The notes beneath the pieces were generated by a model that saw only the letters and a program-made list of their open reading frames with translations, was not told where the DNA came from and ran no database searches. Source: Opitutaceae bacterium (GTDB lineage Bacteria; Verrucomicrobiota; Verrucomicrobiia; Opitutales; Opitutaceae). Taken from it: a DNA stretch of 64,000 nucleotides. The stretch lies in NCBI GenBank assembly GCA_030693515.1, contig JAUYAK010000072.1:1-64000 (forward strand), written 5' to 3'. Each line of letters begins with the position of its first letter. Positions within the stretch are counted from its first letter, which is position 1. The position numbers and the translations under genes were made by a program. Shown piece by piece: positions 45,508-61,768 of this stretch.

Positions 45508-45524
45508 CGCAGCCGGGGAAAGGC

Positions 45525-47381
45525 TTACTTCTTCTTCGTCGCGGCCGGCTGCTTGGCCGCCGGCGGCGGTTCGGCGGCGGGTGGAGCCGGCGGCAAGCTC
45601 GCCTTCAGATCCTGAAAGCGTTTTCGGCCCGGGCCCTCCGGCGTATGCTTGATGCCGTGATCGGCGAGCGCGTGGGCGGCCTGGAGTTCGTTCACATCGG
45701 CGGCGAAACCGGCCGCGACAAAGATGAGCTTCATGCGCATGGGGAAAAGCTGCGCCCCATCGATCATCACCTTCACATCGTCGAGCTGCGGCTTGGCCGC
45801 GCTGCGCGTCCACGTGTCAGCCACGAGATCGTAGAGCGCGGGCATGTGCGGCGGGCTGAGGCGGACGGCGAGGACCGGGGCCAGAATCGCCGCGACCTGC
45901 GCGGGCGCGAACTGACCCTCCGGACCGGCAGGCTTGGCGAGCGCATCAGCGTAACGCATGCGGGCGAGCTCGAGGCCGGCATCAGGGCGCTTGGTTTTCG
46001 CGGCGTAGGCGGCCTCAAGAAATTTCCGGCCACGCTCAGACTCGCCATTCTCGCGATCATAGAGGCCGAGCGCCGCCAACAAATCGGGATCGCGTTCGCC
46101 GCGGGTGTAGGGCGCGACCAGCTCGGTGCGCGCGAGCTTGGTGTGACCGGCGAGCACGAGGGTCTCGCCCTTGATGCGGCCGACCTCAGACTGCGTGGCG
46201 TCGCGCAGCTCGAGGGGTTTCGGCGCAACGACGAGGTCCTCCTTGCCGGTGGCCTTGAAAATTTTCGCCTCATAGACGGTGAAGTCGCAGTAGCTGCGAA
46301 TCTCCATGAGCATATCCTTGTAGCTCATTTCCCTGAACGTCTCCTTGCCGTCCTTCCCCTTGCCCTTCGAGAAGCGGAAGCACTCCTTGAACATCTGCTC
46401 CGTCACCGGCTCGCGCGCCGAGCGCTGCAGGAAGGTCATGAACTGCTTCTGGTATTTGCCCTTGTAGCCGTAGAGGCACATGTGAACGAAGGCGTAGGCC
46501 TGCTTGCCCCAGCGGTTGTTGCCGAGGGTGTTGGTCGCCTCGGGCGAGTCGTGCTGCACCTCGAAAAATTTCTGCAGCGGCAGCAGCGCCCGGCGGCGCA
46601 ACGCGGCGGGAAAATCGCGATCCTCGGCGGGTGCGCCCGCCAGCGTGGTGGCATCACCGTCTTCGCCGCCGGCGGCGGCGTTGAGCTCGTTGATCTGCGC
46701 CACCATGGCGGCCGCAGCCGAAATGGTGTTGGGATCCTCCAGCTTCGCGAACTCGATGTAACGCTTGTCGAACTGCATCCGCATGATGATTTGCGAAAGC
46801 CCCTCCTCGAACCAAGCGGGCAGGCGCGGTTCGTTGTTCGAGAGCAGGTAGCGGACGTATTCGCGATAGAGCTGCTTGTCGTGCTCGACGGACATCAGGG
46901 TGTTGTCCGTGCCCGCGGAGTCGTTGCCAAGATCGAGGACGTTGAGCGTCGTGGACTCGAGATCGATCACGATGGCGGTCTGCGTGCCGCGCTTGAGGAA
47001 GAGACTGGCAAAGGCGGTGTCGGCCGAGATCTTGCCCGCCGGGATGAACTTGTCGAACTTCGCGCCCTTGCCGCAGATGATCAGCGCGGTGGGCTGCGAG
47101 ATGCGCTGCGGCATGGGCCAGATGAGACTGAGCGCCTGGCGAAACATATCGAAATCGCGCAGCAGACGCTGGGTGCCTTTGACCGAGGCGTTGCTCAAGA
47201 TCTCGAAGCCAGGCATCGTGCCGTAGCGCCACGACTCGGGCGGCGGCAGCTCGCGGTTGTCGGTGACGACGAACTTGGGCAGCTCAACCACGGGGTCGGC
47301 GGCGGCGGGGCGATCTTGCGCCGAAAGCGGCGCAATGAACCAAAACAGCGCAAGGGCAGGCAAGGCAGCCAGCAGTTTCAT
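45525..47381 (-). CDS. Degenerate peptidase-like exported protein, copy 1
   Basis: A 618-residue protein with a signal peptide (MKLLAALPALALFWFIAPLSA). Near the N-terminus is VVELPKFVVTDNRELPPPES (31-50). The central fold matches DUF1570-like gluzincins; the zinc motif is changed from HEYxH to REYVR (173-177), keeping the glutamate and the downstream PAWFEEGL (188-195). Helical repeats fill the C-terminal half, which ends in a Pro/Ala/Lys tail. It lies 17 bases upstream of its paralog, so the pair arose by tandem duplication. The ATG at 47381 was chosen for the signal peptide. Confidence 0.82.
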   Translation of the reverse strand: MKLLAALPALALFWFIAPLSAQDRPAAADPVVELPKFVVTDNRELPPPESWRYGTMPGFEILSNASVKGTQRLLRDFDMFRQALSLIWPMPQRISQPTALIICGKGAKFDKFIPAGKISADTAFASLFLKRGTQTAIVIDLESTTLNVLDLGNDSAGTDNTLMSVEHDKQLYREYVRYLLSNNEPRLPAWFEEGLSQIIMRMQFDKRYIEFAKLEDPNTISAAAAMVAQINELNAAAGGEDGDATTLAGAPAEDRDFPAALRRRALLPLQKFFEVQHDSPEATNTLGNNRWGKQAYAFVHMCLYGYKGKYQKQFMTFLQRSAREPVTEQMFKECFRFSKGKGKDGKETFREMSYKDMLMEIRSYCDFTVYEAKIFKATGKEDLVVAPKPLELRDATQSEVGRIKGETLVLAGHTKLARTELVAPYTRGERDPDLLAALGLYDRENGESERGRKFLEAAYAAKTKRPDAGLELARMRYADALAKPAGPEGQFAPAQVAAILAPVLAVRLSPPHMPALYDLVADTWTRSAAKPQLDDVKVMIDGAQLFPMRMKLIFVAAGFAADVNELQAAHALADHGIKHTPEGPGRKRFQDLKASLPPAPPAAEPPPAAKQPAATKKK

Positions 47382-47421
47382 ACGCGGATGAGACGAGCGC
47401 CGCCGCCGCAAGTTGCCGAGA

Positions 47422-47449
47422 CTAAAAATCCCCCTCGGCGGCGAGGGGG
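47422..47449 (-). terminator. Terminator after the symporter gene
   Basis: Read on the minus strand: CCCCCTCG, loop CCGC, CGAGGGGG, then ATTTTTAG. The eight-pair stem is perfect (plus-strand arms at 47430-47437 and 47442-47449) and is followed by five T. It lies about 70 bases past the symporter stop and ahead of the peptidase-like gene. Confidence 0.8.
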
Positions 47450-47520
47450 AGCACGTTGACCTCAACGCGCTTTCAGGAGCCACGCCGCGACCCAAGCGCG
47501 TTGGGTCAACGCGTTCCACC
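47449..47520. repeat. Inverted pair of GCGTTGAC units
   Basis: GAGCACGTTGACCTCAACGC (from 47449) is mirrored by GCGTTGGGTCAACGCGTTCC, ending in ACC at 47520. Each arm is itself palindromic around GTTGACC/GGTCAAC. The right arm touches the stop codon of the symporter gene. A similar GTGGAG-CTCCAC unit lies at 26303-26332. Confidence 0.7.
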
Positions 47521-49547
47521 TACGGCCCCGCCGCGCGCAAAGCCCAGACAAACAGCCCGATAATCGCCCCCGAAAGCGCACAGCAGGCGGCAAAGCCGAT
47601 GGCATCGACGCGGTCCCAGCGGCAAAACTCCCAGTTCGAGCGCGGCAGGAGCTTGGTGTCGTCAAACCGGGCGGGCCGCCGCCGCGTCGCCTCCAGCGCT
47701 GCGGCCTCAAGCTCGGGCGTGGCGCCGACCGGCGTCTTCATCTTGCCGTAGAAAATCGCCACGCGTTCGGCCTCCGTGCGCCGTGTGATCAGGCTGACGC
47801 CGATCAGCACCGCGAAGGGAAACAAGGCGTCGAAAAAAAACTGGAGCGTGAAGCGCTGGTTGGGCGTGAGAGCGGCGACATCCACGCCGGCCCGGCCCAG
47901 CACCCAAACCTCGAGGTTGAAACGGTTGAGCCCACCGGCCGCGACCAGCGGGCTGGAGGGATCGCCGACGCGCTCGCGCACGACCTTGCCAAAATACACC
48001 CCCGTGCCCGGCTTGGCGCTCATCGCCGTGAGCTCTGGGTGCGCGGCGAGGCTCGGCACATGCGACGCCGTCCAAGGCACGACCAGAATCACGAGCGACG
48101 AAAGCACCACGCAGGCCCACACCGCAGGCGCGGTCGTGCGCCGCCAGAAGAACGTCAGCAGCACCGCCGCGCCAAACGGCAGGTTCACCGTGAGCACCAC
48201 GTTCATGATCGAGAAAAAGCTGCCCATCATCAGCGCCGAGACCGTGCCCAGCACGAGCACCGCGACAATCACCAGCCGCGCACTGAAAATCGCCTGCGCG
48301 GTCGTAAGACCCGGGGCGATCGGCCGGAAGACATTGCGCACAAAGAGCGACGAGATCGCGAGGGCCTTGGCCGCCAGCGTGGACATCGTGCCGGCGAGCA
48401 CGCCCGCGAGCATCAGGCCCACGAGCCCCGGGCCCAGCAGGCGGTTGGACATCGCCCCCCACACCTCGTCGGGATCGGCGAGCCCGCCCACCCCGAAGAG
48501 CGCGACGGCAATCAGCCCGGCAAACGCCCAGAGCACGATCATGACCCGCTTGAGGTAGTTGCCGGATACGCCGCAGCGCGCGGCAAACTCGTCCTTCGCC
48601 GAACCGCAGATGCCCATGTTGTGGCTGAGGCCGGCGTTCTGCACGATGCTCACGAGCAGAATCGCGCCGAGCGCCACGACGGAGAGCTGATCCGCACCAC
48701 CGCTCGCGAAGAGCTCGAACATTTTCGCCGGCACCTTGTGCGCGAGCTCACCCCACCCGCCAATCGCGGCCAGCCCCGTGGGGATCAGCAGCAGCGAAAA
48801 CACGATGATGAGGATGCTCTGCAACCCCTCGTTGACGGCCGCCGCGGACATGCCGCCGATCACGATGTAGCCGCCGACAATCAGCGAAAACACGACGTAG
48901 AACACCATCGCATTGAGCTCTGTCGCGGCGCTGCCGAGCTGCCCGCGGGCATTCCGATCGCGCAGTTCCTCCAGGCGCGAGAGGGGTTCGCCGACCACCG
49001 GCACCGCGGCGTGCTGTTTTTCCAAGGCCTTCAGCTCGCGATAGCCCTCGACGCGCGCGCGATCCGCGGTCGTCCACGACGTCTCGGGCTTCACGACCAG
49101 CGACGACGCGATCTTGTAAGCCGTCACGTTGCCGAAGCCGAGAAACACGCACGCCACGAGAATCTGGAAAAGCGCGTAGAACATGCTCAGCCCACGGCTC
49201 CCATAGCGATCCTCGAACAGGTCCGAGAGCGTGGTCAGCCGCACGCGCCGGAACCAGACGTTCATGAACCAGAAATACGGATTCATGAAGACCGTCTGGA
49301 AAGTGAGCCAGACTCCCGTGGCCCCGCGCTCGAAAACCTGGCTGGCGGTAAAGACCGCGCCCTGCGGTTCGGTGGCGTTGCCGAAATTCAGGAAGAACTG
49401 GTAGAGTTTACCGAGCTTGCGGCCCGCGAGGAAGAATCCCTCCTCCGAGGCCGAGGCCCGGGCCGCGCGCAGGCCGATCCAGACGACCGCGATGAGATAC
49501 GCGGCGATAATCGCCAGATCGATAACGTGCAAACTGCCGATGCGCAT
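47520..49547 (-). CDS. Sodium:solute symporter (SSS family)
   Basis: A 675-residue membrane transporter with about 13-14 TM helices. It starts with LHVIDLAIIAAYLIAVVWIGL, then GFFLAGRKLGKLYQFFLNFGNATEP, a typical SSS opening, although longer than most members, and has a large cytoplasmic loop near 180-250 and an extended C-terminal region. The substrate is probably a sugar or uronate given the neighbours (sulfatase, rhaM, divergent LacI regulator). The ATG at 49547 was chosen over an upstream frame extension. Confidence 0.9.
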   Translation of the reverse strand: MRIGSLHVIDLAIIAAYLIAVVWIGLRAARASASEEGFFLAGRKLGKLYQFFLNFGNATEPQGAVFTASQVFERGATGVWLTFQTVFMNPYFWFMNVWFRRVRLTTLSDLFEDRYGSRGLSMFYALFQILVACVFLGFGNVTAYKIASSLVVKPETSWTTADRARVEGYRELKALEKQHAAVPVVGEPLSRLEELRDRNARGQLGSAATELNAMVFYVVFSLIVGGYIVIGGMSAAAVNEGLQSILIIVFSLLLIPTGLAAIGGWGELAHKVPAKMFELFASGGADQLSVVALGAILLVSIVQNAGLSHNMGICGSAKDEFAARCGVSGNYLKRVMIVLWAFAGLIAVALFGVGGLADPDEVWGAMSNRLLGPGLVGLMLAGVLAGTMSTLAAKALAISSLFVRNVFRPIAPGLTTAQAIFSARLVIVAVLVLGTVSALMMGSFFSIMNVVLTVNLPFGAAVLLTFFWRRTTAPAVWACVVLSSLVILVVPWTASHVPSLAAHPELTAMSAKPGTGVYFGKVVRERVGDPSSPLVAAGGLNRFNLEVWVLGRAGVDVAALTPNQRFTLQFFFDALFPFAVLIGVSLITRRTEAERVAIFYGKMKTPVGATPELEAAALEATRRRPARFDDTKLLPRSNWEFCRWDRVDAIGFAACCALSGAIIGLFVWALRAAGP

Positions 49548-49674
49548 GACGGTGGGGCTAGGCGCACCTTGCGCCCGCCGAGTGGACCACGGCGAGCAAA
49601 CACCGCCGGCGAGCGTCAGGCGGACGGCCAAAATGGAGAAACAAGTTGCCTTAGCCGTTTGGCCCATGACTATC

Positions 49675-49685
49675 CGGACAGTCCG
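49675..49685. promoter_or_regulatory. Small palindrome ahead of the LacI-type gene
   Basis: CGGAC-A-GTCCG is a perfect 11-base palindrome three bases before the start codon of the regulator, in the 141-base space between it and the divergent symporter gene. Its place fits autoregulation. LacI sites usually have a central CG pair, which this lacks, so the link is weak. Confidence 0.35.
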
Positions 49686-49688
49686 ACA

Positions 49689-50723
49689 ATGGCTGCCTCC
49701 ACCCCAACCCTACGTTCGCTGGCCAAGGAACTGGGGCTTTCACGCACCACCGTGTCCGACGCCCTCCGCGGCTCGCCGCGGGTAGACCCAACGACCGCAC
49801 AGCGCGTGAAAGATGCCGCCGCCGCCGCCGGCTATCGGCGCAATCCGCTCGCCGGTGCACTCATGTCCGAGCTGAGGCGCTCGCGGGGCACGGCGTTTCG
49901 GGGCGTGATCGCGGTGGTGGACTGCGAGGAGCCGGAGCGGCCCAAAGTCGCCCAGCGCTTTCACAGCGAGCTGTATGCCGGTGCAGGGGCGAAGGCGGAA
50001 GACCTCGGGTTCATGGTCGAACGTTTCCCGGTGGGCCCCACGGGCGTGACGGTGTCGCGACTCGGGTCGATTTTGGAGTCCCGCGGCATCCTCGGGCTCA
50101 TGCTGCTCCCCACGTGGGGCGAACCGGACCTCTCGGCGCTGGACTGGACGCGTTTCTCGGGCGTCTACACCGACTACCGCATCGAGCATCCGGCGCTGCA
50201 CTCAGTCTGCTCCGATCACTACCGTTCCATGCTCGCGACACTGCGGCATCTGCACGCCTTGGGCTACCGGCGACCCGGGCTGCAACTCCAGCGCCGCCAC
50301 GACGAACGGCTGGAATTCCGCTGGGCCGCGGCCTTCCGCGCGTTTCAGGAGCACGCGCTCGGCCTGGAGATCGTGCCGCCGTTGATCGTGGATGCGTTTT
50401 CACAGCGCGAGTTCGCGAAATGGTTTCGCCGCCATAAGCCCGACGTAGTGCTCAGCCACAGCACGGAAGCGCTCGACTGGATGGAAGGCTGCGGCGCGCA
50501 GGTGCCGAAAACACACGGTTTCGTCTGCCTGAACCTCCTCAGCCGCACGCGCCCCTGCGCAGGCCTCGATCTCCAGCCCCGCACCATCGGTGCCCGAGGG
50601 ATGGAATTGCTCATCGCCCAGCTGCAGCGCAATGAAACAGGCATCCCCGAATGGCCCTCGACCATGACGATTCCCGCCAAGTGGGTGGACGGGCCCACGC
50701 TCCGCGAAGCTGCGCCCGCCTGA
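49689..50723 (+). CDS. LacI-family transcriptional regulator
   Basis: A 344-residue regulator. The HTH and hinge occupy residues 6-60: TLRSLAKELGLSRTTVSDALRGSPRVDPTTAQRV, then AAAAGYRRNPLAGALMSELRR. The rest is a periplasmic-binding-like effector domain (GILGLMLLPTWG, RRPGLQLQRRHDERLEFRW). It is divergent from the symporter gene and probably controls it in response to a sugar. The effector domain is more divergent than usual, so the ligand cannot be guessed. Confidence 0.9.
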   Translation: MAASTPTLRSLAKELGLSRTTVSDALRGSPRVDPTTAQRVKDAAAAAGYRRNPLAGALMSELRRSRGTAFRGVIAVVDCEEPERPKVAQRFHSELYAGAGAKAEDLGFMVERFPVGPTGVTVSRLGSILESRGILGLMLLPTWGEPDLSALDWTRFSGVYTDYRIEHPALHSVCSDHYRSMLATLRHLHALGYRRPGLQLQRRHDERLEFRWAAAFRAFQEHALGLEIVPPLIVDAFSQREFAKWFRRHKPDVVLSHSTEALDWMEGCGAQVPKTHGFVCLNLLSRTRPCAGLDLQPRTIGARGMELLIAQLQRNETGIPEWPSTMTIPAKWVDGPTLREAAPA

Positions 50724-50753: not shown

Positions 50754-51416
50754 TTACGGCAGCTTCTCGAGATCGGCTGCGGTCCAAGCCGCGCTGCGCG
50801 CGCCTTCTTTGGTCCGGACCGCCGTCACCTTGTCCACCGCGATCGGTCCCGCTTTATTCCCCCACTCCTGGCGGATGTAGGTGAGGACGGCGGCGATCTT
50901 GTCGTCGGACCAGTTGAAACCAGAGCCTTGGCCAAAGCCGGGCATCGCTGAGTTGTAATCAGCCCCCGCAACCTTGATCGGACCCTGCAAGCCATGGAGC
51001 GCGATGCGGATGAGGCGCTCCTCGGAACCGGTGACCCACTCGGAATTGGCCAGCGGAGGAAACGCACCAGGCAAGCCCGCGCCGTTCGGCTGATGGCAAG
51101 TGATGCAACCTCCGGGGATCGCATAGAGCTTCTTGCCGACGGCCACAGGATCGAGCGGGGCCGCCGCCACCACGGCCGTGCCGGTCGAGTATTCGTTGAA
51201 GACGCTGGGGCTGAAATAGCCCGAGAAGCGGCCAAGATAGGTGCCGCCGAAAAAGATCATGCCCGAGAAAATGAACAACAGATTCAGGGGCATCAGACGG
51301 TAGCGGCCCTTTTCGTCGGGCTGCTGGCCGAGGAGCTTGGCGTGAGAAGCCATCAAGGTCTCATCGGAGACGGCCGCGGTGTCGGCCCGCGGATCGGGCT
51401 GGGATGGCGTGCTCAT
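50754..51416 (-). CDS. CcoP-like membrane-anchored monohaem cytochrome c
   Basis: A 220-residue protein. One TM helix (residues 42-60, LMPLNLLFIFSGMIFFGGTYLG) follows a cytoplasmic N-terminus. The cytochrome domain has CITCH (C104, C107, H108) and a Met ligand M158 in NSAMPGFG, so one normal His/Met c-type haem. Classical CcoP has two haems, so this is a shorter form. It is the last gene of the respiratory operon, with ATGA coupling to the CcoO-like gene, and is probably the electron entry or exit of the CcoN-like module. Confidence 0.88.
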   Translation of the reverse strand: MSTPSQPDPRADTAAVSDETLMASHAKLLGQQPDEKGRYRLMPLNLLFIFSGMIFFGGTYLGRFSGYFSPSVFNEYSTGTAVVAAAPLDPVAVGKKLYAIPGGCITCHQPNGAGLPGAFPPLANSEWVTGSEERLIRIALHGLQGPIKVAGADYNSAMPGFGQGSGFNWSDDKIAAVLTYIRQEWGNKAGPIAVDKVTAVRTKEGARSAAWTAADLEKLP

Positions 51417-52036
51417 TTCTTGGCCTCCTCTTTTTTCGCGGGCTCGTAGGGCTTGGCCTCGGGATAATCGTAGCTGGTGTTCAAGCTAAGCAAGTAGGCG
51501 ACGAGGGCGCGGGCGCGCTCGGTAGGCACGGTCTCGTGGCCGGCGGCCTGGCCGGCCACCTTGACGGCGCGCGGCGAGGATTCGCCGGCGATCGCGCGAG
51601 TCTCAAAGAGGAATGAGTAACCGGGATGTGTCGCCGATCCGTGATAGAGCAGACCCAAAAGCGCTTCTTCGCTCTTCTGCCGGGCACCGAGATTGGTGAG
51701 GTCCGGTCCGAGGCGCGAGGCACCGAGCTGCGGCCGGGCTTGGTGGATGTAATCGCGGGCGACACTCTGGCGCTCGCCCCAACCGCGGTCCTTGTCGCTG
51801 CCATAGCCCGGGCGGCGCACCTGCTGCGTGTGGCAGGCGGCGCAGCCGAGATCGGCGTAAACCAGCTGGCCGCGTGCGGCCAGGCCGGAAGTGCGCTGGG
51901 GAAAGGAGCCGCCCTCAGTGTCGTCGTGATACGGCGTGAGGCCGCCGAGCTGGCTGTGCGAACCCAGCACCAAGGCGGAGAACGAAATCAAGATCGCGAG
52001 GAAAACCCCGGTGAAAAGGAAGGGGCCGTTTTTCAT
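51413..52036 (-). CDS. CcoO-like monohaem cytochrome c with altered axial ligand
   Basis: A 207-residue protein with an N-terminal TM anchor (residues 7-26) and a haem site CAACH (C65, C68, H69) followed by TQQVR, as in CcoO (CHSQMIR). SRLGPDLTNLGAR is a second CcoO segment. The sixth haem ligand of CcoO is the Met in KMPSYPW; here the aligned stretch is THPGYSF, with H137 at the Met position. That suggests bis-His ligation and a lowered potential. The gene overlaps its neighbours on both sides by four bases. Confidence 0.85.
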   Translation of the reverse strand: MKNGPFLFTGVFLAILISFSALVLGSHSQLGGLTPYHDDTEGGSFPQRTSGLAARGQLVYADLGCAACHTQQVRRPGYGSDKDRGWGERQSVARDYIHQARPQLGASRLGPDLTNLGARQKSEEALLGLLYHGSATHPGYSFLFETRAIAGESSPRAVKVAGQAAGHETVPTERARALVAYLLSLNTSYDYPEAKPYEPAKKEEAKK

Positions 52037-53457
52037 GACGCGTGCGCCTCCTCAGTCGCGGCCCGGAAGAGCGTGGGCGTGGGCTCCGCGGTCCGGGTCC
52101 ACGGGCAGGCGGAACGGAGGAAATTCACCAGCAGCAGGAGGTTTGCGCTGAGCAGCACGGCCTGCGCGGCGGTGTTAATCAGCAGCGGCGTGCTCATGCG
52201 ACCGAACATGTCGGGAAAACTCACCTTCGGATCGAGCAGGCCCTCACCCTGAGCGCCGCCGGCGATGCCCAGCGCGGCGATGGAAATAACGACCCCTGCA
52301 AGCACCAGCCAGCGGTGACCGCTGATGAGGCTGGCCGAGGCCCACGCGAGCCCGGTCAGCCGGGGCACGGCGAAGTAGATGCCGCCGAAGAAAATCATCG
52401 AAATCGCGCCGTAAAGGCCAAGCTGCTCGATGGCGGCGTTGAACAGCGTGAAGTGCGTGTGCGCCGCGACGCCCCGGAACGAGGCGATGAACTCCGCCAC
52501 ACCGAAGACCAAATAGGCGACAAACCCGAAGCGGATGAAGGCCGCCGTCGTGCCACCCACACCCCAAATCGCCCGCAAATTGAGCAGGATGATCAGGTAG
52601 TGGAAGAGCATCATCGATTGCGCCACCACGGCCATCGTGGGAATCCAGGCCGGCACCGGCCCGCCGACGAGATGGCGTCCACCGCTCCACGAGCCGATGA
52701 AGAGCAGCGTCCAGAAACCGAGCGACGCCCATTCATACACCGGAATGATTCGGCCGCTGATCTTGGGCACGATGTAATAGACCACGGCCAGCGCAAGTGG
52801 CGCGAGCCAGAGCGCCCACACGCCTTGGGCAAACCAAGTCGCCGCGATCGGCTGGACGACGCCGCGGACCGGCATCCAGAGCAGCACCGCCTGGGCCGCG
52901 ATCAAAAGCCAAGGAAAGAGGAAGATAGCCGCCACCGCATACCACTGCGAGGCATACATCGCGTCTTCACGTCGGCCCGACCACGCCAGCACACCGGAGA
53001 CGCCCATGCACGCATAGGCAAACACGAGCAGCGGCTGCACATAACGCGGCATCTGGAGCAGGCCAAACGAGGTCATGTCGCCGATCGCGATGCCGACAAG
53101 ACCGAGCGCGACGCCGGCGTTCCAGAACAAGGATCCCGCCACGACCCAGTTGAGACCGCGCAACGGGCGGCCACCGAGGCGGGCGAGAATCCAGAGCGCC
53201 AGGCCGAGGCCCGCGTTGGCCAGCCAGCCATAGACGAAGGCCGTCTCACGCAGCGCCTGCGCGCGGCCATGCGTCAACTGCGGGCAATCCGCGAGGAACT
53301 GCGGCGCATGCAGCTGGATGGAAGTGAGGAGCGCGAGGACACCGCTGACGACGAGCCACACCAGCCCGGAGCCCAGCAAGAGCAGCAGCGGGCCGCGCGC
53401 TTGGGTGTCGATGGCGGTGACTTCGGCCGTTGTGGCGTGGGTCGGAGGGTTGGGCAT
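52033..53457 (-). CDS. CcoN-like protein lacking most haem and copper ligands
   Basis: A 474-residue protein with about 12 TM helices that aligns with cbb3 oxidase subunit I. The fold landmarks match (LTHGRAQALRETAF, VYYIVPKISGR, FWTLLFIGSWSGGRH, SMIFFGGIYFAVPRL), but metal ligands do not. The helix-II low-spin haem His is R70, the helix-VI copper His of YGHN is Q211, the HH pair is R261-H262, the cross-link Tyr is G256, and helix-X HxH is I343-E344-Q345. Only H262 remains. It should not bind the binuclear centre. It sits between a one-helix protein and the CcoO-like gene, sharing the operon with alternative complex III. Confidence 0.85.
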   Translation of the reverse strand: MPNPPTHATTAEVTAIDTQARGPLLLLLGSGLVWLVVSGVLALLTSIQLHAPQFLADCPQLTHGRAQALRETAFVYGWLANAGLGLALWILARLGGRPLRGLNWVVAGSLFWNAGVALGLVGIAIGDMTSFGLLQMPRYVQPLLVFAYACMGVSGVLAWSGRREDAMYASQWYAVAAIFLFPWLLIAAQAVLLWMPVRGVVQPIAATWFAQGVWALWLAPLALAVVYYIVPKISGRIIPVYEWASLGFWTLLFIGSWSGGRHLVGGPVPAWIPTMAVVAQSMMLFHYLIILLNLRAIWGVGGTTAAFIRFGFVAYLVFGVAEFIASFRGVAAHTHFTLFNAAIEQLGLYGAISMIFFGGIYFAVPRLTGLAWASASLISGHRWLVLAGVVISIAALGIAGGAQGEGLLDPKVSFPDMFGRMSTPLLINTAAQAVLLSANLLLLVNFLRSACPWTRTAEPTPTLFRAATEEAHAS

Positions 53458-53481: not shown

Positions 53482-53814
53482 TTACTTTTTCGCGCCGTAT
53501 TTCTGCGCAGTCAGTTCCATGGCTCGGTCGATGGGCAGCTGCACCACGCCGGCGCCCTGATCGATCCAAGCGTAGCTCGCGGCCTGCGCGGCTTGCTTCG
53601 CCTTGTGCTCCTCAAGGGCCTTGCGCCGGCTGGCGACCGAGGCGCGCCAAGCGAGCTCCTTGGGCAGGTTCTCCGCAACGTCATTCTGCGGCGACACGTT
53701 CGCCGGATGATAGGCCCAGCGCAGCACGAGCAGGAAGAGCGCGAACAGCGCCAAAACGAAGACCAAGGAGAAGAGCGAAACCGGGCGGGCCGGCGTGGCG
53801 GGCGTGTCACTCAT
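53482..53814 (-). CDS. Small one-helix protein of the complex III operon
   Basis: A 110-residue protein. One TM helix (residues 13-32, SLFSLVFVLALFALFLLVLR) is followed by a charged helical region and a C-terminal motif YAWIDQGAGVVQLPIDRAME (81-100). The ATG at 53814 overlaps the actF stop by eight bases, and the CcoN-like start lies 24 bases downstream. I recall similar YxWxD-PIDRAMxL tails in proteins next to respiratory complexes in other phyla, but cannot name a family. It may be a linking subunit between complex III and the CcoN-like module. Confidence 0.75.
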   Translation of the reverse strand: MSDTPATPARPVSLFSLVFVLALFALFLLVLRWAYHPANVSPQNDVAENLPKELAWRASVASRRKALEEHKAKQAAQAASYAWIDQGAGVVQLPIDRAMELTAQKYGAKK

Positions 53815-55084
53815 GGTGCGTGAGGCTTTCGCCAATGCGCGGGTCGCGGATCGGGATGAGTTTCGCGGTCGGCAGACTGCGGAGGTAGGACCAGACGCAG
53901 ACCCCACCGACCCCGACCACGGAGGTCAGAACCCAGAGGAGATTGAGCGTCAGGAAAGGCCGCGCGTCGCCATGTGCATCCTTCAGGATCGGCAGCACGT
54001 TGTAGCAGACGTCGATCAGGATCACGCCGAGGATCCAGAGGGCGGCGGGCTTAATCTTCGAATGGACGACCTTGTGCTTGTAGGAAAGCAGGTAGAGGAA
54101 CGGCACCACGAAGTGACCGAAGAGGATCACGAGGCCGACATACCACCATTGGTTCGTCGAGCCGTCATGGTTCAATTCGCGGAGGTTATACCAGAAGGTC
54201 TCCTCGGGCACGTTGGCGTTCCAAATCAGGAAGTATTGGGAGAACGTGACGTAGGCCCAGAATACCGTGAACGCGAAGCTGAGCATGCCGATCGAGTAGA
54301 AGTGGTTCGTGTTAAGCACGCCCTTGTAGTCGCCGCGGTTCCACAGCCAGATCATGATGAGGATGCCGATGGCGAGTGCGCCGCGCGCACAATTGGCGAA
54401 GAACCACACGCCATACATGGTGGAGAACCAATGGTATTCGAGCGACTTCACCCAGTAGATGGCCGCAGCCGTGAGCGTGAGGGCGCCAATCGGGATGCCG
54501 AAGGCCGCGGTCTTGCGGCTCATGAAGGTCCACTTCAGGTCGCCGTCGGAGTCCTGCGAGAATGATGCTTTGCGCAGCCGGGCCGAGAGCCACATCCAAA
54601 GCAGGAAGAAACCGATCGTGCCGAAGACGAAGGCCCACTTGTTGAGGAAGCCCGCCTTCTTCAGATACAGCGGGTCGTGGCCGACCGTGTGGCCGCCGTG
54701 AATCTCGCCGTCCAGGTTCATCCAAGGCCAGACCAGATCGCCATGGGCGATCCAAGGCGTGATGAGCAGCGGGATGAAAAGGACGAGCAGCCACTTGAAC
54801 GACGCGAGGCCGTGCTCAAACTGGCGGCGGATCACCGTGGACCACGAGGCGTCGAAGATGTGGTGAATCATCACCAGCATCAGCATGCCGATGGCCATCG
54901 CGGACCAGAAGGTGAGGCCGACGAGCCAGGAGGTCGCGACGACCTTGGCGCCCGCGCCGGGGACCAAGAGGCCGATGGCGGTGAGCGCGATGCCCACGAT
55001 GCCCACGGTGAGGGCTTTTTTCGCCGAAGCGTCGCCAGACTCCGCGGGGAGCGCCACGGGGGCGGTTGTAGCTTGGGAAATCAT
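53807..55084 (-). CDS. actF: Alternative complex III subunit ActF
   Basis: A 425-residue membrane protein with about ten TM helices, a homolog of ActC without its full quinone-site set. Landmarks are LTFWSAMAIGMLMLVMIHHIFDASW, a GSFKWLL-like loop, WAFVFGTIGFFLLWMWLSARLRKASFSQD and GHFVVPFLYLLSYKHKVVH. In alternative complex III ActF packs against ActC and contributes to the membrane domain and possibly proton movement. It overlaps actE by four bases and the small protein gene by eight. Confidence 0.92.
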   Translation of the reverse strand: MISQATTAPVALPAESGDASAKKALTVGIVGIALTAIGLLVPGAGAKVVATSWLVGLTFWSAMAIGMLMLVMIHHIFDASWSTVIRRQFEHGLASFKWLLVLFIPLLITPWIAHGDLVWPWMNLDGEIHGGHTVGHDPLYLKKAGFLNKWAFVFGTIGFFLLWMWLSARLRKASFSQDSDGDLKWTFMSRKTAAFGIPIGALTLTAAAIYWVKSLEYHWFSTMYGVWFFANCARGALAIGILIMIWLWNRGDYKGVLNTNHFYSIGMLSFAFTVFWAYVTFSQYFLIWNANVPEETFWYNLRELNHDGSTNQWWYVGLVILFGHFVVPFLYLLSYKHKVVHSKIKPAALWILGVILIDVCYNVLPILKDAHGDARPFLTLNLLWVLTSVVGVGGVCVWSYLRSLPTAKLIPIRDPRIGESLTHHE

Positions 55085-55725
55085 GGGAGGCCGAGGGTTT
55101 GTTTGCCGGCCGCGTCGGTCACATCCGCCGCTGTGCCTTGCTGAGCCCGCTGGAGTGCGCGCAGGTAGGCGACGACGGCCCAGCGGTCTTCGGGCGCAAT
55201 CTTGTCGGCGTAGCCCTGCATGGTGTTTTTGCCGTTGGCGATGGTGTTGTAGATCTCGCCTTCCGGCATCGTGCGGAGGCGCGGATCGTGAAACGTGGGC
55301 GTGGCGCCCATGCCGTAGCGCTTGGTGATGCCGTTGCCGTCGCCGGTCGCACTATGGCAAGGGGCGCAGTAGATTTGGAACTGACCCTGGCCGCGGCGCA
55401 CGAAATCGAGGTCAATCTTGCCGGCGAGCGCAGCCGGGAAGCCGGCCGCAAACGCGCCAGCCGCGGTCTTGCCGAGGTGCAGGTGATCGTCGTCGCGCAG
55501 CATGCCACGCGCGACGGTGTGCGCCGGCGGCATGCGATCAGCACGGCCATCGGCGAAGAAAGCGCTCTCGGACTGCGGGCGCAGCTTCGGCTGGTATTTC
55601 ATGCCCGGGAAGGCCCACTCGGGAAACACATCGAGCGGGGGCGCGGTGAATTTCGTGTCGCGGAATCCGAGCAAGGAAACCGTGAGCACGCAGACGAAGA
55701 AGGTGGCGAGATAGACGTGGCGCAT
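55081..55725 (-). CDS. actE: Alternative complex III subunit ActE, monohaem cytochrome c
   Basis: A 214-residue cytochrome with an N-terminal membrane segment (MRHVYLATFFVCVLTVSLLG; C12 could be lipidated) and one haem site CAPCH (C120, C123, H124), followed by GDGNGITKRYGMGATPTF. Mets near the C-terminal half (NTMQGYADKI) can supply the axial ligand. ActE passes electrons from the ActA/ActB arm towards the terminal acceptor. It starts three bases after actD and overlaps actF. Confidence 0.92.
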   Translation of the reverse strand: MRHVYLATFFVCVLTVSLLGFRDTKFTAPPLDVFPEWAFPGMKYQPKLRPQSESAFFADGRADRMPPAHTVARGMLRDDDHLHLGKTAAGAFAAGFPAALAGKIDLDFVRRGQGQFQIYCAPCHSATGDGNGITKRYGMGATPTFHDPRLRTMPEGEIYNTIANGKNTMQGYADKIAPEDRWAVVAYLRALQRAQQGTAADVTDAAGKQTLGLP

Positions 55726-55728
55726 GGC

Positions 55729-56262
55729 TCAGGGCTCCAGCTCCGTGACGGCGGCGCCGCCGATTTTTTCCAACATCGCCTTGGTGTTGGCCAAGTTGAA
55801 ACGCGGATCGCGCGCCTCGATGACGATGAAGAACGTGTCGTCCATGCCGCGCACGATGTGGTCGTATTTCAGCACAGGGTGGTAGTGGCGCGGCAGGCCG
55901 TTGACGAGGAACATGCCGATGATGGTGGCAAAGGCCGTGAAGAGGATCGTGAGCTCGTAGCTCACCGGAAACGCGAACATCGGGCTGAAGAGCGGCTTGC
56001 CGCCGACGATCAGGGGATAGTCCACCGCACCGGTCCACCAGATCATGGTCATGCCGGTGATGAAACCGGTGATGCCGCCGGCGAGCGAGATGCGCGGCAC
56101 GATCGAGCGCTTCAGGCCCATGGCTTTGTCGAGGCCGTGCACGGGGAAGGGCGTGATGCAATCCCAGTGGCGGTAGCCCGCGTCGCGGACCTGCTCCGCC
56201 GCATGGTAGAGCTCAGGAGCCGTGTTGAAGGTGGCGATGACGCCGTAAGGTTGGACAGCCAT
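55729..56262 (-). CDS. actD: Alternative complex III subunit ActD
   Basis: A 177-residue membrane protein of the DUF3341 type. A soluble N-terminal part (YGVIATFNTAPELYHAAEQVRDAGYRHWDCITPFPVHGLD) precedes two TM helices (LAGGITGFITGMTMIWWTG and VSYELTILFTAFATIIGMFLVNG). A short cytoplasmic tail follows (DTFFIVIEARDPRFN). ActD is a structural subunit of alternative complex III with no cofactor. It lies five bases after actC. Confidence 0.95.
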   Translation of the reverse strand: MAVQPYGVIATFNTAPELYHAAEQVRDAGYRHWDCITPFPVHGLDKAMGLKRSIVPRISLAGGITGFITGMTMIWWTGAVDYPLIVGGKPLFSPMFAFPVSYELTILFTAFATIIGMFLVNGLPRHYHPVLKYDHIVRGMDDTFFIVIEARDPRFNLANTKAMLEKIGGAAVTELEP

Positions 56263-56267
56263 GGCGA

Positions 56268-57707
56268 TCAGTGCTTGCCCTCCGCGCCGTGCCCGCCGTG
56301 GACGTCAGCCTGCGGCGTGACGGCCTTGAGTTCGGCCATCGGCATGATCGGCAGGAAGCGGATGAAGAGGAGGAAGAGGACCGAGAACACGCCGAAGGTC
56401 CCGAAGAACGTGAAGATTTCCACGATGCTCGGCGAGTAGTAGCCCCAGCTCGAGGGCAGGAAGTCGCGGGCGAGCGAGGTCACGATGATCACGAAGCGCT
56501 CGAACCACATGCCCACATTGACGAAGATCGAGAGGATCCAGACCAGTGCGGTGTTGTTGCGGACAGCCTTGAACCAGAAGAACTGCGGCGTGATGACGTT
56601 GCAGCCGATCATGATCCAATAGGCCCAGGCGTAGTGGCCAAACGCGCGGTTGATGAAGGCGAAGCCCTCATACGGGTTGGCACCATACCACGCGATGAAG
56701 AACTCGATGCCGTAAGCGTAGCCGACGATGGTGCCGGTCGCCAACGTGATCTTGCACATGCAGTCGATGTGATACTGCGTGATCAAATCCTGCAGGCCAT
56801 AGACCGCGCGCAGCGGGAGCATGAGCGTAAGCACCATGCCGAAGCCGGAGAAGATGGCGCCCGCCACGAAATACGGAGGGAAGATCGTCGTGTGCCAGCC
56901 CGGGATCAGCGAAACCGCGAAGTCGAACGAGACGATGGTGTGCACCGAGAGCACGAGCGGCGTCGAGATGCCGGCGAGGATCAGGTAGGCCATCTCGTAG
57001 TTGCTCCAGTGGCGGTTGGAACCGCGCCAGCCCATGGCAAACAGGCCGTAGAGGAACGAACGAATCTTGTTGCCGGCGTTGAAGAACCGGTCCCGGAGCA
57101 CCGCGAGGTCGGGAATCAGGCCGATATACCAGAAGAGCACCGAGACCGTGCCGTAGGTCGAGACCGCGAACACGTCCCACTCAAGCGGCGAGCGGAAGTT
57201 CTGCCAGATGACGTTCGAGTTCGGGATCGGGAAGAGATACCACGCATACCACACGCGGCCGACGTGGAAGACCGGGAAGATCGCGGCGCAGACGACCGCG
57301 AAGATCGTCATCGCCTCGGCGGCGCGGTTGATGGATGTGCGCCATTTCTGGCGCAGCAGGCAGAGGATGGCCGAGATGAGCGTGCCGGCATGACCGATGC
57401 CGATCCAGAAGACGAAGTTGACGATGTCCCACGCCCAGTTGACCGGGTTGGCGTGGCCCCAGACCCCGACGCCCGTGATGACGAGGTAGGTGATGCCGGC
57501 GACCGTGAAAGAGGCGACAAAGCAAGCGAGGATGAAGCAGACCCACCACCAGGTGGGAGTCTTGCCCTCGATGATGCCGCAGATCTTCTCGGTGATCCAA
57601 TTGAAGCTGCGGTTATTCTCGACGAGGGTGGCGCGCGGGAGGACCGCGGGCTTCACTTCGCTGAGGATCGCCGGGGCGTCGGCGGCGTGATCGGATGCGT
57701 GGGCCAT
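56268..57707 (-). CDS. actC: Alternative complex III subunit ActC (NrfD-like)
   Basis: A 479-residue protein with ten TM helices of the NrfD/PsrC family, the quinol-binding subunit of alternative complex III. Landmarks are [44 protein letters not shown] (quinol-site region), [22 protein letters not shown] and [17 protein letters not shown]. Quinol oxidised here passes electrons to the iron-sulfur clusters of ActB. It begins 36 bases after actB and ends with a His-rich tail ([12 protein letters not shown]). Confidence 0.95.
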
Positions 57708-57743: not shown

Positions 57744-60700
57744 TTAATGCGCACCTTTCTTGGCGGCGCCGTGGGCGGCGGGGGCGTGGCCGTGATCGTG
57801 GGACGGCGGCACATTCTTGCGGTCGTATTCCGTGCGGCTGTGGGGCAGCGGCTTGTAGTCGGGCATCTTCGGGTTCGGATTCCGCAGCTTGCCCGAATAC
57901 GTGGTGCGCGGACGGACGTTGAGGTAGCCGAGCACGGCGTAGTCCTGCTCGCGGGCCTTCGCCTTGGAGACGGCGCTGTTGGGATCGAGGATGTCGCCGA
58001 AGGTGATCGCACCGACCGGGCAGGTCTGCTCGCAGGCGGCCTTGATGGTGCCGTCCGGCACTCGCACGTCGCCGGGCTTGCCCTCGCGGGTCATCTTCAC
58101 CTTGTGCTGAATCTTCGCGTTCTGGATGCGCTGCACGCAATAGGTGCACTTCTCCATGACGCCGCGCATGCGCACGCTGACCTCGGGGTTCTTCGCCATC
58201 TTGACGAGTTCCGGGGTGCCGAAGTCGGCGAGCGGCCCGAGGTAGAGCTCGTCGAGTTTGCGCTGGTTCCAATCGAAGAAATTGAAGCGCCTGACCTTGT
58301 AAGGGCAGTTGTTCGCACAATAGCGGGTGCCGATGCAGCGGTTGTAGGCCATCGTGTTGATGCCTTCGTCGTCGTGCACGGTGGCGTTGACGGGGCACAC
58401 GGTCTCGCACGGGGCGAGCTCGCAGTGGACGCACGTCATCGGCTGGAGCGAAATCTGGGGCTCCTCGGGGAGCATCTTGTTGCCCTCGCCGCCAAACGCA
58501 GAGCCGTCGATCTGGCCGTCCGAATAGTAGCGGTCGATGCGGATCCAGTGCATCTCGCGACCGCGCATGACCTGCTCCTTGCCGACAATCGGGATGTTGT
58601 TCTCGGCTTGGCAGGCGACGACGCAGGCGTTGCAACCGATGCAGGTGTTAAGGTCGATCGACATGCCCCACTGGTGGTGGCCGTCGAACTTGGGGGTGGA
58701 GTAGAGCGAATTGCCGCGCGGGATCTGCACGGCGCGCTCCTGCGGCGTCATCTTTTCGCCGACCGGGCCGATGTTGCTCGGCGCGTGGGACTCCATGCCG
58801 ATCGTGTTAACGAAGGCCGGATTCTCCTGGTAGCTCTTGCCGTCGGGGGTCGCCGCGGGCTCGTAGTTGGCCTCGCGAATGATGTCGCGGCCTTCCATCG
58901 ACCAGTGCTCCTGGGTGTTGGCGAGGAGCGCGCGGGTGCCGGTGTTGGTGAGCGTGCCGGAGGCCACGTGCATCGCGTCCGAAGCGCGGGCGGGATAGGC
59001 ATTGAAGCCGGCGTCCTTCCCGACGCGACCGGTGACCGAGCGGCCATAGCCGAGCGGGACGATGACGGTGTAGTTGGCGAGGCCGGGCTGGATGTGGACG
59101 GGGCCGCGGATCTTGCGGCCGCCGACCGTCAGTTCGAAGACGGGCGCGCTCTGCTTGCCCATGGTGAACTCCGCCTCCTCCTTGCGCGCCACCTGAATCG
59201 CTGAGCCCTTGGGCTCGATATTCAGATCCTTGGCGAGGCGGGGGCTGACGAGAATCGCGTTGTCCCACGAGATCTTGGTGATCGGATCGGGGCACTCCTG
59301 AAGCCAGCCGTTGTTGGCGAAGCGGCCGTCGTCCATCTTGTGATCGGCGACGAATCGGACCTCCACGTTGCCGGCACTGAATTGGATGACCGGCTTGGGC
59401 GCGCCGAGCAGTTGCCTCACGCCGTTGACCGAGAAGCGCACGGCCACGGGGCGCGGGGCGGACTTGGCGAGCACACCGTCGTGGAGGAAGCGCGCCATCG
59501 TCTTCTCCGCGGTGGCTCCGGCACCCGCGAGGCCCGTGATGGTGGTGGCGACCAAGGCGTAGGAATCGGGGGTCTTTTCGCCGGTGATGCGGGCGATGAT
59601 TTCGTTGTCGGTAAGGCCGCCGAAGAGCGGCTGAATCATCGGCTGCACGGGCACGACCGTGCCGTCAACCGTGCGGGCATCGCCCCACGATTCGAGGTAA
59701 TGCGCCCGGACAACATGCACGACGCCCTGGCTGGCGGCGGTCGTCTCGTCGACGTGGTAGCCCACGCGAACGACTTCGCCCACGGATTTCTGCAGCGCCG
59801 CCCAGCCGAGATCGGCGGGGGCGTTGTAGGCGGGATTGCCGCCCAAAATCACGAGCGTCTTGACCGAGCCGCCCTTGATGGCGGTGGCGAGGGCGCTGAT
59901 CGTCGAGACCCCGGGTGTCGTCTCGATGGGGATGAACTCCACCGTCTGACCCACCGCGCCGATGGCGACGTTGATGCCGTAGACCAGCGCATGGACCTCG
60001 GCCGGCAGATGGGCTCCGGCGACCACGAGCGCGGCGCCCTTCTGGGCGAGGAGATCGTTGGCGCACTCGTTGATCCAAGCTTGGGAGACGCCGATTTCGT
60101 GCACGTAAGGCACGAGCTGATCGACGGCCTGCTGGTAAGTCGCCGCCGCGAGGCGGGCCGCAAACGACAGCATGTGGCTCGACGACAAGCGCAGCCGGTG
60201 ATCAGCCATGCTGCCGGTGAGCGTGAGACCGCTCTCCACCGCATAAAGGCGGTTCATCGGATCGCTCTTCTTCGCGACGCGACGCCCTTGGGCAAAGCCG
60301 CGGGCGTGCGCGAGGCTGCCGGCCTCGGTTTGCAGGAAATCAGCGTCGATCGAGACGATGCGCTTGGCCTTGGCGAAATGATAGACGGGCTTCACGGCCG
60401 CGCCGAAGGCGGCCTGGGCCGCGGCGATCGGGGCTTCGTCGGTCACGGGCTCATACTCAGCCCAGACGGAACGCGGGAACTTGGCCCGGAGCGCGGCGAC
60501 GAGGCGGCGGCGCGTGGGCGACGAGGATTCCTCCGCGAGGAAGGCCAGCCCGGCGCCCTGCGTCGCGGCGTAGTTCTGCGAAATCGTATCAAGGATCTGA
60601 TCGACTTGCTCACGGGTGACCGTGGCGCCGGCCTTGGTGTGCGCCGTGGCGCGGTCCGGATCGTAGAGATCGAGGATGGAGGCCTGCGCGGCGAGCGAGG

Positions 60701-61112
60701 CGGCGCCACCGTGCGGCTCGAAGCTGGCGTTGCCCTCCAGCTTGGTCGGGCGGCCTTGGTGCGTCTCGGCCAGCAGCGGGATCGCCCATTTGCGCACCGG
60801 CATCGCGGTCGCGTAGCAGGAGGGCAGGCCGGGGATGACACCCTCGACCGATTTGCCATAGGGCAAAATGAATTTCTCCGGACGGCGGCAACCCGCGAGG
60901 CCCGCGCCTCCGAGCGCGAACGACGCCGCCATGATCTTCATGAAGTGGCGGCGATCCACGCCCTCCAGCGTGTCGGCCCCCTCGGGAAACTCGCGCTCCA
61001 TCTGCGCGCGGAAGCCGGGCGTAGACTGCAGCTCGTCGAGGCTGCGCCAGTAGGCCGGGCCGGTGAGCTGCTCGCGTTCAGACGGAGCCGGATGTTCAAA
61101 TTTGCGTTTCAT
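57744..61112 (-). CDS. actB: Alternative complex III subunit ActB (iron-sulfur/molybdopterin-like)
   Basis: A 1122-residue subunit. A Tat signal is present (DRRHFMKIMAASFAL, R54-R55) with a candidate lipobox at LAGC (C75). Residues 80-780 are the molybdopterin-oxidoreductase-like domain, which in this complex carries no molybdenum. The C-terminal ferredoxin domain holds the clusters: CIGCNACVVAC near 820-830, CVHCELAPCETVCP near 890-903, CIGTRYCANNCP near 925, then CTYCVQRI near 987 and CEQTCP near 1027. It takes electrons from ActC to ActA. The gene overlaps actA by four bases. Confidence 0.95.
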   Translation of the reverse strand: MKRKFEHPAPSEREQLTGPAYWRSLDELQSTPGFRAQMEREFPEGADTLEGVDRRHFMKIMAASFALGGAGLAGCRRPEKFILPYGKSVEGVIPGLPSCYATAMPVRKWAIPLLAETHQGRPTKLEGNASFEPHGGAASLAAQASILDLYDPDRATAHTKAGATVTREQVDQILDTISQNYAATQGAGLAFLAEESSSPTRRRLVAALRAKFPRSVWAEYEPVTDEAPIAAAQAAFGAAVKPVYHFAKAKRIVSIDADFLQTEAGSLAHARGFAQGRRVAKKSDPMNRLYAVESGLTLTGSMADHRLRLSSSHMLSFAARLAAATYQQAVDQLVPYVHEIGVSQAWINECANDLLAQKGAALVVAGAHLPAEVHALVYGINVAIGAVGQTVEFIPIETTPGVSTISALATAIKGGSVKTLVILGGNPAYNAPADLGWAALQKSVGEVVRVGYHVDETTAASQGVVHVVRAHYLESWGDARTVDGTVVPVQPMIQPLFGGLTDNEIIARITGEKTPDSYALVATTITGLAGAGATAEKTMARFLHDGVLAKSAPRPVAVRFSVNGVRQLLGAPKPVIQFSAGNVEVRFVADHKMDDGRFANNGWLQECPDPITKISWDNAILVSPRLAKDLNIEPKGSAIQVARKEEAEFTMGKQSAPVFELTVGGRKIRGPVHIQPGLANYTVIVPLGYGRSVTGRVGKDAGFNAYPARASDAMHVASGTLTNTGTRALLANTQEHWSMEGRDIIREANYEPAATPDGKSYQENPAFVNTIGMESHAPSNIGPVGEKMTPQERAVQIPRGNSLYSTPKFDGHHQWGMSIDLNTCIGCNACVVACQAENNIPIVGKEQVMRGREMHWIRIDRYYSDGQIDGSAFGGEGNKMLPEEPQISLQPMTCVHCELAPCETVCPVNATVHDDEGINTMAYNRCIGTRYCANNCPYKVRRFNFFDWNQRKLDELYLGPLADFGTPELVKMAKNPEVSVRMRGVMEKCTYCVQRIQNAKIQHKVKMTREGKPGDVRVPDGTIKAACEQTCPVGAITFGDILDPNSAVSKAKAREQDYAVLGYLNVRPRTTYSGKLRNPNPKMPDYKPLPHSRTEYDRKNVPPSHDHGHAPAAHGAAKKGAH

Positions 61113-61768
61113 CGGTGGCAGCCGGAGCAGCTCTGGGGAGGCGTCACTTTCCAGTCGTGGACAAACTTCTGGGCGGTCTTCAGACCTTCGGGCCCCTTGT
61201 CGGCGAGGCGGGGGGAATTGAGATTAAAGACGTCCTTCGGATCGCGCAGCCGGGCCGCCGGATCGCGGTGGCACTCGATGCAGAAGGCCATGCTGAGGGG
61301 CTTGGAGTGGGAGACGACGTCCATCTCGTTGACCTTGCCGTGGCACTCGACGCAGGAGACGCCGCGGTTCACGTGCGCTGCGTGGTTGAAATAGGCGTAG
61401 TCCGGCGTGGTGTGAATCCACACCCAGGGCACCGGCGTTCCCTTCTCGGCGCTCTCCCGGACCGGGGCGAGCAGCGGACTGTTGGCCTTCACCACACTAT
61501 GGCAATTCATGCACGTCTGCGCCGAGGGAATGTTGGAATGGCCGGACTTATCGACGTTCGAGTGGCAGTAGCGGCAATCGAGCCCGATCTCCTGCACATG
61601 CTGGGCGTGGCTAAACGGCACCGGCTGCACCGGGGCATAGCCGACCCGCGTGTATTTCGGCGTCATGTAGTAGGTGACACCCGCGGTGGCGATGCCCGCC
61701 AGCACGACCAGATAGATGACGATCTGGAAGGGAAGGGTGTTGGCCGACTTCGGAAACAGTTTCGACAT
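61109..61768 (-). CDS. actA: Alternative complex III subunit ActA, pentahaem cytochrome c
   Basis: A 219-residue protein with one N-terminal TM helix (residues 14-34) and five CXXCH sites: C65 (CRYCH), C86 (CMNCH), C139 (CVECH), C163 (CIECH) and C214 (CSGCH, four residues before the end). This is the exact haem count of ActA. It carries electrons from ActB to ActE on the periplasmic side. It is coupled to actB by an ATGA overlap and is preceded by a small Tat-like reading frame. Confidence 0.95.
   Translation of the reverse strand: MSKLFPKSANTLPFQIVIYLVVLAGIATAGVTYYMTPKYTRVGYAPVQPVPFSHAQHVQEIGLDCRYCHSNVDKSGHSNIPSAQTCMNCHSVVKANSPLLAPVRESAEKGTPVPWVWIHTTPDYAYFNHAAHVNRGVSCVECHGKVNEMDVVSHSKPLSMAFCIECHRDPAARLRDPKDVFNLNSPRLADKGPEGLKTAQKFVHDWKVTPPQSCSGCHR

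Follow-up and report, generated by a model that had tools for sequence, protein, structure and literature searches.

The ACIII operon of the window

Subunit I is treated as the catalytic core of haem-copper oxidases, and the presence of its gene is taken as a capacity for oxygen respiration, at low oxygen in the case of the cbb3 type. An alternative complex III (ACIII) operon in the window analysed here, a stretch of 64,000 nucleotides from a genome of the Opitutaceae, carries a gene for a cbb3-like subunit I without most of its metal ligands. The gene concerned (ccoN*) is intact, in agreement with an earlier note made from the sequence alone (the sequence-only reading); it lies on the minus strand and encodes 474 amino acids (protein P0001). 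Counted from actA, it stands eighth in a same-strand run of the order actABCDEF–fixQ-like–ccoN*–ccoO–cytochrome c, with the act genes extending from 61768 down to 53807 on the minus strand and the start of the ccoO-like gene overlapping the ccoN* stop by 4 bases:

61109..61768, minus strand: actA, pentahaem cytochrome c with five CxxCH motifs (Pfam search and motif reading)
57744..61112, minus strand: actB, iron-sulfur protein (Pfam search)
56268..57707, minus strand: actC, NrfD-like (NrfD, 83.2 bits)
55729..56262, minus strand: actD (ActD, 219.5 bits)
55081..55725, minus strand: actE, monohaem cytochrome c (Pfam search and operon reading)
53807..55084, minus strand: actF (place in the operon only; without a Pfam match)
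53482..53814, minus strand: small FixQ-like protein (weak Pfam FixQ match, E 0.0068, 16.8 bits, below the cut-off of 29)
52033..53457, minus strand: ccoN*, ligand-less CcoN-like protein (Pfam COX1, 107.5 bits; alignment; predicted structure)
51413..52036, minus strand: CcoO/FixO-like monohaem cytochrome c (FixO, 33.3 bits, cut-off 29.6; CxxCH kept)
50754..51416, minus strand: CcoP-like monohaem cytochrome c (CxxCH and Met kept)

The run shows the characteristics of an ACIII operon, namely the actA-F order, a pentahaem ActA, an iron-sulfur ActB, two NrfD-like proteins, ActD and a monohaem ActE (ActF by place only). From gene order, CcoN* is predicted to be a physical subunit of ACIII. Past the end of the operon, inspection by eye for motifs indicated what we take to be a sodium-solute-symporter-like protein (47520-49667, minus strand) and, at about 49600-50723 on the plus strand, presumably a LacI-type regulator. 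The translations of two neighbouring minus-strand ORFs at 43750-45813 and 45525-47519 look, by eye, mutually paralogous.

Cofactor ligands and fold of CcoN*

The ligand sites of P0001 were aligned without gaps to the genome's own true cbb3 CcoN (L085) and to ligand-complete ACIII-linked relatives. At the canonical H/H/Y/H/H/H/H sites, P0001 has R70/Q211/G255/R261/H262/I343/Q345, i.e., five of the six metal ligands and the cross-link Tyr are replaced. The claim of the sequence-only reading that H262 is the sole surviving ligand is thereby upheld; its loss of the cross-link Tyr also stands, but the aligned residue is G255 and not G256. The histidines H50, H63, H286, H333 and H335, which had been named as possible substitutes, lie off the ligand columns and were rejected on alignment and on conservation, and the reading as a loss stands. 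No His column was gained by the ligand-less relatives either, as judged from 58 ligand-less rows: His occurs in at least half of them only at columns 50 (33/58) and 381 (52/58), which are His in the ligand-complete relatives as well (29/31 and 31/31, respectively).

The active-site Glu, which we assume to be that of the TFEGP motif, corresponds to position 321, where P0001 has A and where L085 is the only one of 33 ligand-complete rows to have Glu. P0001 also lacks the pattern of the cNOR subunit NorB, six His plus an active-site Glu, with Q211 and A215 instead of the helix VI His and of the Glu presumably located one turn after it. As far as the available parts of PMC5492636 go, the active-site Glu is mandatory for authentic cbb3 oxidases; the paper also refers to a haem-copper oxidase group that it calls 'unknown'.

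The fold, in contrast to the ligands, appears to be kept. An AlphaFold model of P0001 calculated with 57 sequences from the window and related genomes reached a pLDDT of 90.5 and a pTM of 0.90, whereas a single-sequence model was poor (pLDDT 47.7) and was set aside. The best structure match of the former was the cbb3 CcoN 3mk7_D (Z 51.1, rmsd 2.0 Å, 439 residues), and nitric oxide reductases ranked next (Z 44.5 and 42.7). The modelling that had been proposed as a check thus gave a confident cbb3 subunit I fold, and the statement that this fold is retained is supported by the predicted match to CcoN structures. Consistent with this, P0001 scored 107.5 bits against Pfam COX1 (PF00115; cut-off 34.8). 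Against the NCBIfam model ccoN (TIGR00780) it reached only 82 bits, far under the equivalog cut-off of 583.15. Compared with cbb3 CcoN (3mk7, 8smr), the window protein is alike in its fold, in its ccoO and ccoP-like cytochrome c partners and in the small FixQ-like protein, but differs by the missing ligands, Tyr and Glu and by an identity of about 20%. Tested as a C-family subunit I it shows the fold, and lacks the set of six His, the cross-link Tyr, the active-site Glu and a score at the ccoN cut-off.

CcoN* would accordingly represent a C-family subunit I in which the ligands of CuB and of both haems, the low-spin b and the high-spin b3, have been lost. No catalytic capacity is expected of it; its product should not reduce O2, and we infer from the ligand sites that bound haem is absent. 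A functional cbb3 oxidase that was misread through an alignment or assembly artefact would fit the continued recognition of COX1/ccoN by Pfam and NCBIfam and the naming of this locus type as cbb3 in print, but it is hardly credible in view of the gap-free ligand sites, the low TIGR00780 score and the fact that dozens of other assemblies, single-contig ones among them, show this loss as well.

Distribution of ligand-less and ligand-complete proteins

Homologs were found in 80 of 95 related genomes searched (some places, e.g., partial ones of G013 and G069, were not taken). In an alignment of 85 sequences, from which the partial L087 and the duplicates L002 and L003 were left out, 56 ACIII-type loci had lost the ligand set and 22 kept it; two of the latter (L059, L076) had no act genes in the flank examined. 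The ligand set was also complete in two other CcoN-like sequences and in all five cbb3 CcoN(O) sequences of the alignment. A separate full-ligand CcoN-like protein with 28% identity, accompanied by a ccoO-like gene and without act genes in the flank, was observed in G029 (L082) and G032 (L083).

A scan of named genomes used the best 80 of 287 relatives, mostly metagenome bins of Opitutae/Opitutaceae, and the fragments L145 and L163 as well as L200, which is without ccoN, were left out. The proteins of the cultured Cephaloticoccus primus (L142) and C. capnophilus (L143) are ligand-less, that of strain IMCC26134 (L166) is ligand-complete, and contig C59 of G201 holds a 472-residue frame without stops. 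A ligand-complete ACIII-CcoN operon was also seen in a record titled Candidatus Omnitrophota (L161), where it points to transfer or misbinning.

For a census, 288 genomes were drawn evenly from across the Verrucomicrobiota, and 94 of them matched the family profile. Counted were 65 ACIII-type CcoN loci, all from the window's class and with the best place of each genome judged ACIII-type by score; 44 of these are ligand-less and 21 complete. Since the five aligned cbb3 sequences all keep the set, this frequency of loss goes beyond chance. The act genes lie upstream in 64 of the 65 loci, which, together with the adjoining act genes in the window and the relatives, supports the view that the gene is locked in an operon. 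Excluded from the census were 28 genomes of other classes, for which the four copies retrieved (G127, G240, G257, G296) are ligand-complete with no act genes found, and G168, whose copy is short, ligand-less and without act genes. The latter (L261) is a CcoN-like open frame of 347 aa with ccoO and a cytochrome c beside it and no act genes in the flank.

The ligand-complete ACIII-linked relatives (L042, L049, L055, L170 and others) occupy the same gene place and have about 33-41% identity to the window protein; they keep the six His and the Tyr, but also lack the canonical Glu. Because this Glu is absent from all but the true cbb3 L085, the complete ACIII-type proteins would form a distinct C-family branch whose oxidase activity is putative.

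Homologs had been proposed as a check of whether the substitutions are conserved. The loss does recur across related Verrucomicrobiota; a single conserved substitution motif was not found, the residues being lineage-specific and the losses at least four in number. The ligand-less rows show a wide variety of residues at the ligand sites, with differences from lineage to lineage. Of the six His, 18 of the 58 ligand-less tree rows have none, 33 one, six two and one three, and H262 is retained in 17. Only L171, together with its near copy L172, keeps both H70 and H345 among the ligand-less tree rows. These class-level relatives have retained the low-spin haem b pair and lost the ligands of the binuclear centre, possibly a half-way state, and from such sites not all of the 'lost' members need be haem-free.

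The proteins might still bind one or more haems via non-canonical ligands and act as redox subunits with new chemistry. The retention of H262 in 17/58 and of H381 in 52/58 ligand-less rows and the pair kept in L171/L172 would agree with such a role. However, H381 is present in 31/31 complete relatives and hence is no replacement ligand, different lineages have different residues where the ligands were, and L187 and L189, which are close to the Methylacidiphilum kamchatkense Kam1 protein, hold only 6 and 5 His in total. Furthermore, apart from C58, no column has gained a His, Met or Cys in half or more of the 58 ligand-less rows relative to the complete ones, and we regard this explanation as unlikely. 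Cys58 itself, located in the helix I-II loop, occurs in 34/58 ligand-less and 1/31 ligand-complete rows.

Repeated loss of the ligands

A CcoN tree of 91 rows was calculated with the ligand columns removed; the 11 rows omitted were near copies, except for the ligand-complete L161 with its doubtful binning. This tree, which has long branches that may draw ligand-less rows together, requires four changes, the same number if only starred branches are considered, with a bootstrap range of 4-4. The changes are losses because the first-branching rows are ligand-complete. One concerns the large clade containing the window, the second L050 and L068, the third a clade of L153/L156/L202 that adjoins the complete L049/L055/L203/L204, and the fourth other families of the class, adjoining the complete L170. 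A single ligand-less clade was rejected by the AU test (p-AU 0.002). The ligands were lost at least four separate times. A single ancestral loss had been compatible with a smaller tree, from which 16 near or redundant rows were left out and which had one change, a number also obtained in 62% of the 200 bootstrap replicates (range 1-3), and was rejected once more lineages were included.

The tree of the ActBCDF proteins, a quick tree with a simple model, requires 16 changes, at least 12 of them forced by starred branches; L059 and L076 were omitted for having no act genes and L034, L036, L159, L174 and L189 for having too few. A number of 12-16 losses is not claimed, as the conflict between the ActBCDF and CcoN trees may also reflect an exchange of ccoN between operons. 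The disagreement of the two trees is seen, e.g., for the Cephaloticoccus loci L142/L143, and such an exchange could account for some of the additional changes.

Selection on the ligand-less genes

In eight of nine pairs, the dN/dS of ligand-less ccoN was 0.09-0.17 (the ninth pair was saturated, and three of the eight usable pairs were drawn from the Methylacidiphilum-like members L186-L188). Of seven pairs of complete ccoN, two were saturated and the other five had values of 0.05-0.12. In each of the eight ligand-less pairs, actC was below ccoN. Ligand-less ccoN is under purifying selection, which is somewhat relaxed. Between ccoN* and its nearest relative L090 the ratio was 0.118, and neither the broken frame nor the dN/dS near 1 of a pseudogene was found; the sequence-only reading was right in regarding the gene as not decaying. 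Conserved in both the ligand-less and the complete group are 63 columns, 48 of them within residues 1-275, and the mean identity to the complete consensus by segment was 0.35-0.49 for the ligand-less versus 0.66-0.88 for the complete proteins.

This lower identity, which reflects faster evolution, and the somewhat higher dN/dS are what would be seen in a functionless relic that is kept by the need for the other genes of the operon through translational coupling. Against a relic, which we consider quite unlikely, speak the frames without stops among the matches listed, the dN/dS values far under 1, the 63 columns conserved in both groups and the persistence across families of the class. Fold, operon and selection indicate that ccoN* still does something. 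This might be the handling of ions or quinone as an ACIII subunit, e.g., in a proton path, rather than the holding of cytochromes, and several charged and polar residues are indeed conserved in the ligand-less rows (D17 56/58, K232 52/58, R93 53/58, R366 49/58, Y227 56/58 and Y228 54/58). All six are found in 31/31 complete relatives, however, and hence are no mark of a gained function, and some may contribute to folding or to contacts between subunits, which makes a role of this kind very unlikely.

Neighbouring cytochromes and the route of electrons

The CcoO-like cytochrome keeps its CxxCH motif in 54/54 ligand-less and 21/21 complete loci. The distal Met, which we take to be the axial haem ligand, is kept in 21/21 complete but only 26/54 ligand-less loci, in which His (25/54) or other residues (3/54) occupy the remaining sites. 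The window CcoO has His at this position (alignment column 142), which would predict a bis-His haem. In the ligand-less loci the CcoO haem has thus been altered and may not act as a fast relay, a point against the scaffold explanation given below. In the second cytochrome, CxxCH and the aligned Met are kept in 55/56 ligand-less loci. The retention of CxxCH in both cytochromes indicates that the electron carriers outlast the oxidase centre.

The window genome (G000) contains two further PF00115 matches, an A-type subunit I on contig C93 with HPEVY, HH and HxH kept and, on C38, a ligand-complete cbb3 CcoNO-like protein; its A-type oxidase lies outside the ACIII operon. In the relatives set, every genome that holds one of the 56 ligand-less loci has two or more PF00115 matches and hence at least one other oxidase-like gene. 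Among 21 genomes with a complete copy, this copy is the sole PF00115 match in G065 (an 80% complete genome) and G070; the same applies to G227. A same-strand A-type cox1 gene follows downstream in 20/44 ligand-less versus 1/21 complete census loci (Fisher p 0.0013), an association confounded by phylogeny because all 20 ligand-less cases come from outside the window's order and cluster in a few families; the flanks read were also of uneven length (about 1.5 to 10 kb). The M. kamchatkense Kam1 locus runs act - small ORF - ccoN* - ccoO - cytochrome c - COX1 - COX3 - COX4 - COX2, and the downstream COX1 keeps HPEVY, HH and HxH. By analogy, this suggests a link of the window CcoN* to an aa3 oxidase.

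The probable explanation, in our judgement, is that CcoN* is a pseudo-oxidase subunit whose retained role is that of a cofactor-free scaffold in the membrane, fastening CcoO and the cytochrome c to ACIII while the electrons go to another oxidase. Both monohaem cytochromes c, the CcoO-like and the CcoP-like one, would be anchored by it in the membrane next to ACIII. From menaquinol, electrons would pass via the ACIII haems and these cytochromes to a genuine oxidase, whose genes lie on another part of the genome or, for other families of the class, in the A-type operon directly downstream. This scaffold role, the non-catalytic half of the former CcoN function, would be the most economical one. 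With another oxidase accepting the electrons, the protein's own centre would be dispensable, which would explain its repeated loss. Both the physical assembly with ACIII and this route we infer from the combined observations.

According to the accessible parts of PMC5928083 and PMC8552683, direct electron transfer is established for ACIII-caa3/aa3 supercomplexes. The systems of Rhodothermus marinus (ACIII-caa3) and Flavobacterium johnsoniae (ACIII-aa3) are alike in that ACIII feeds the oxidase directly and the oxidase genes lie beside act. No CcoN-type subunit is described for them in these parts, whereas here the genes for a pseudo-CcoN and two cytochromes c follow those of ACIII and, in some families, precede those of the oxidase.

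Published descriptions of the locus and M. kamchatkense Kam1

The sequence-only reading could match the protein to no described system. In this form the statement is too broad, because the locus type is already in print: Opitutaceae and verrucomicrobial methanotrophs are reported to have an ACIII cluster with a 'C-type/cbb3' oxidase behind it (PMC8498564, in the parts available). There it is described as an oxidase, however. No description of a ligand-less CcoN was found in the open-access library searched, and the available parts of PMC6688271, PMC8498564, PMC4013037, PMC8706344, PMC10205796, PMC5928083, PMC5492636 and PMC8552683 do not mention a loss of ligands. For Kam1, co-location of the ACIII genes with a high-affinity cbb3 oxidase is reported and tied to low-oxygen growth (PMC6688271, likewise in part), and aa3, ba3 and cbb3 types are listed for verrucomicrobial methanotrophs in a section of PMC10205796. 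The published ACIII-linked C-type oxidase (PMC8498564, PMC6688271, as far as available) is found in the same operon as the family analysed here, which includes Kam1 (L188). It is described as a cbb3 oxidase, whereas the Kam1 copy is ligand-less, with S/E/S/S/H/F/V at the H/H/Y/H/H/H/H sites.

Four further PF00115 matches were obtained in Kam1, with 435, 432, 268 and 198 bits compared with 51 for its ccoN*. The CcoN profile gave four matches, and those listed besides ccoN* reached only about 33 bits, whereas other CcoN-type proteins among the matches listed had at least 125 bits over most of their length. Among the matches listed for this profile, no second cbb3-type subunit I was seen in Kam1.

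A more far-reaching version of the scaffold explanation is tentative and falls a little short of probable: the cofactors were stripped at least four times while the subunit was kept in an ACIII-cytochrome c-aa3 supercomplex, and the 'cbb3' of Methylacidiphilum is no oxidase, its cytochromes instead wiring ACIII to the downstream A-type oxidase. Databases and papers name the ligand-less protein an oxidase; it is probably a structural part instead. If this is true, the inference of respiration from ACIII-linked 'cbb3' genes would be wrong for most of those in Verrucomicrobiota (44/65 in the census), including Kam1, where the published oxygen-affinity argument rests on cbb3 (PMC6688271, in its available parts). 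Relatives that differ in whether they keep the ligands, but share the operon, also form natural pairs that make a scaffold role in ACIII supercomplexes directly testable. As a minor observation on the Kam1 locus, its actC (L188:2677-4121) consists of two overlapping frames of 381 and 112 aa, versus one frame of 482 aa in L186/L187, which points to a frameshift, either of the gene itself or of its database record.
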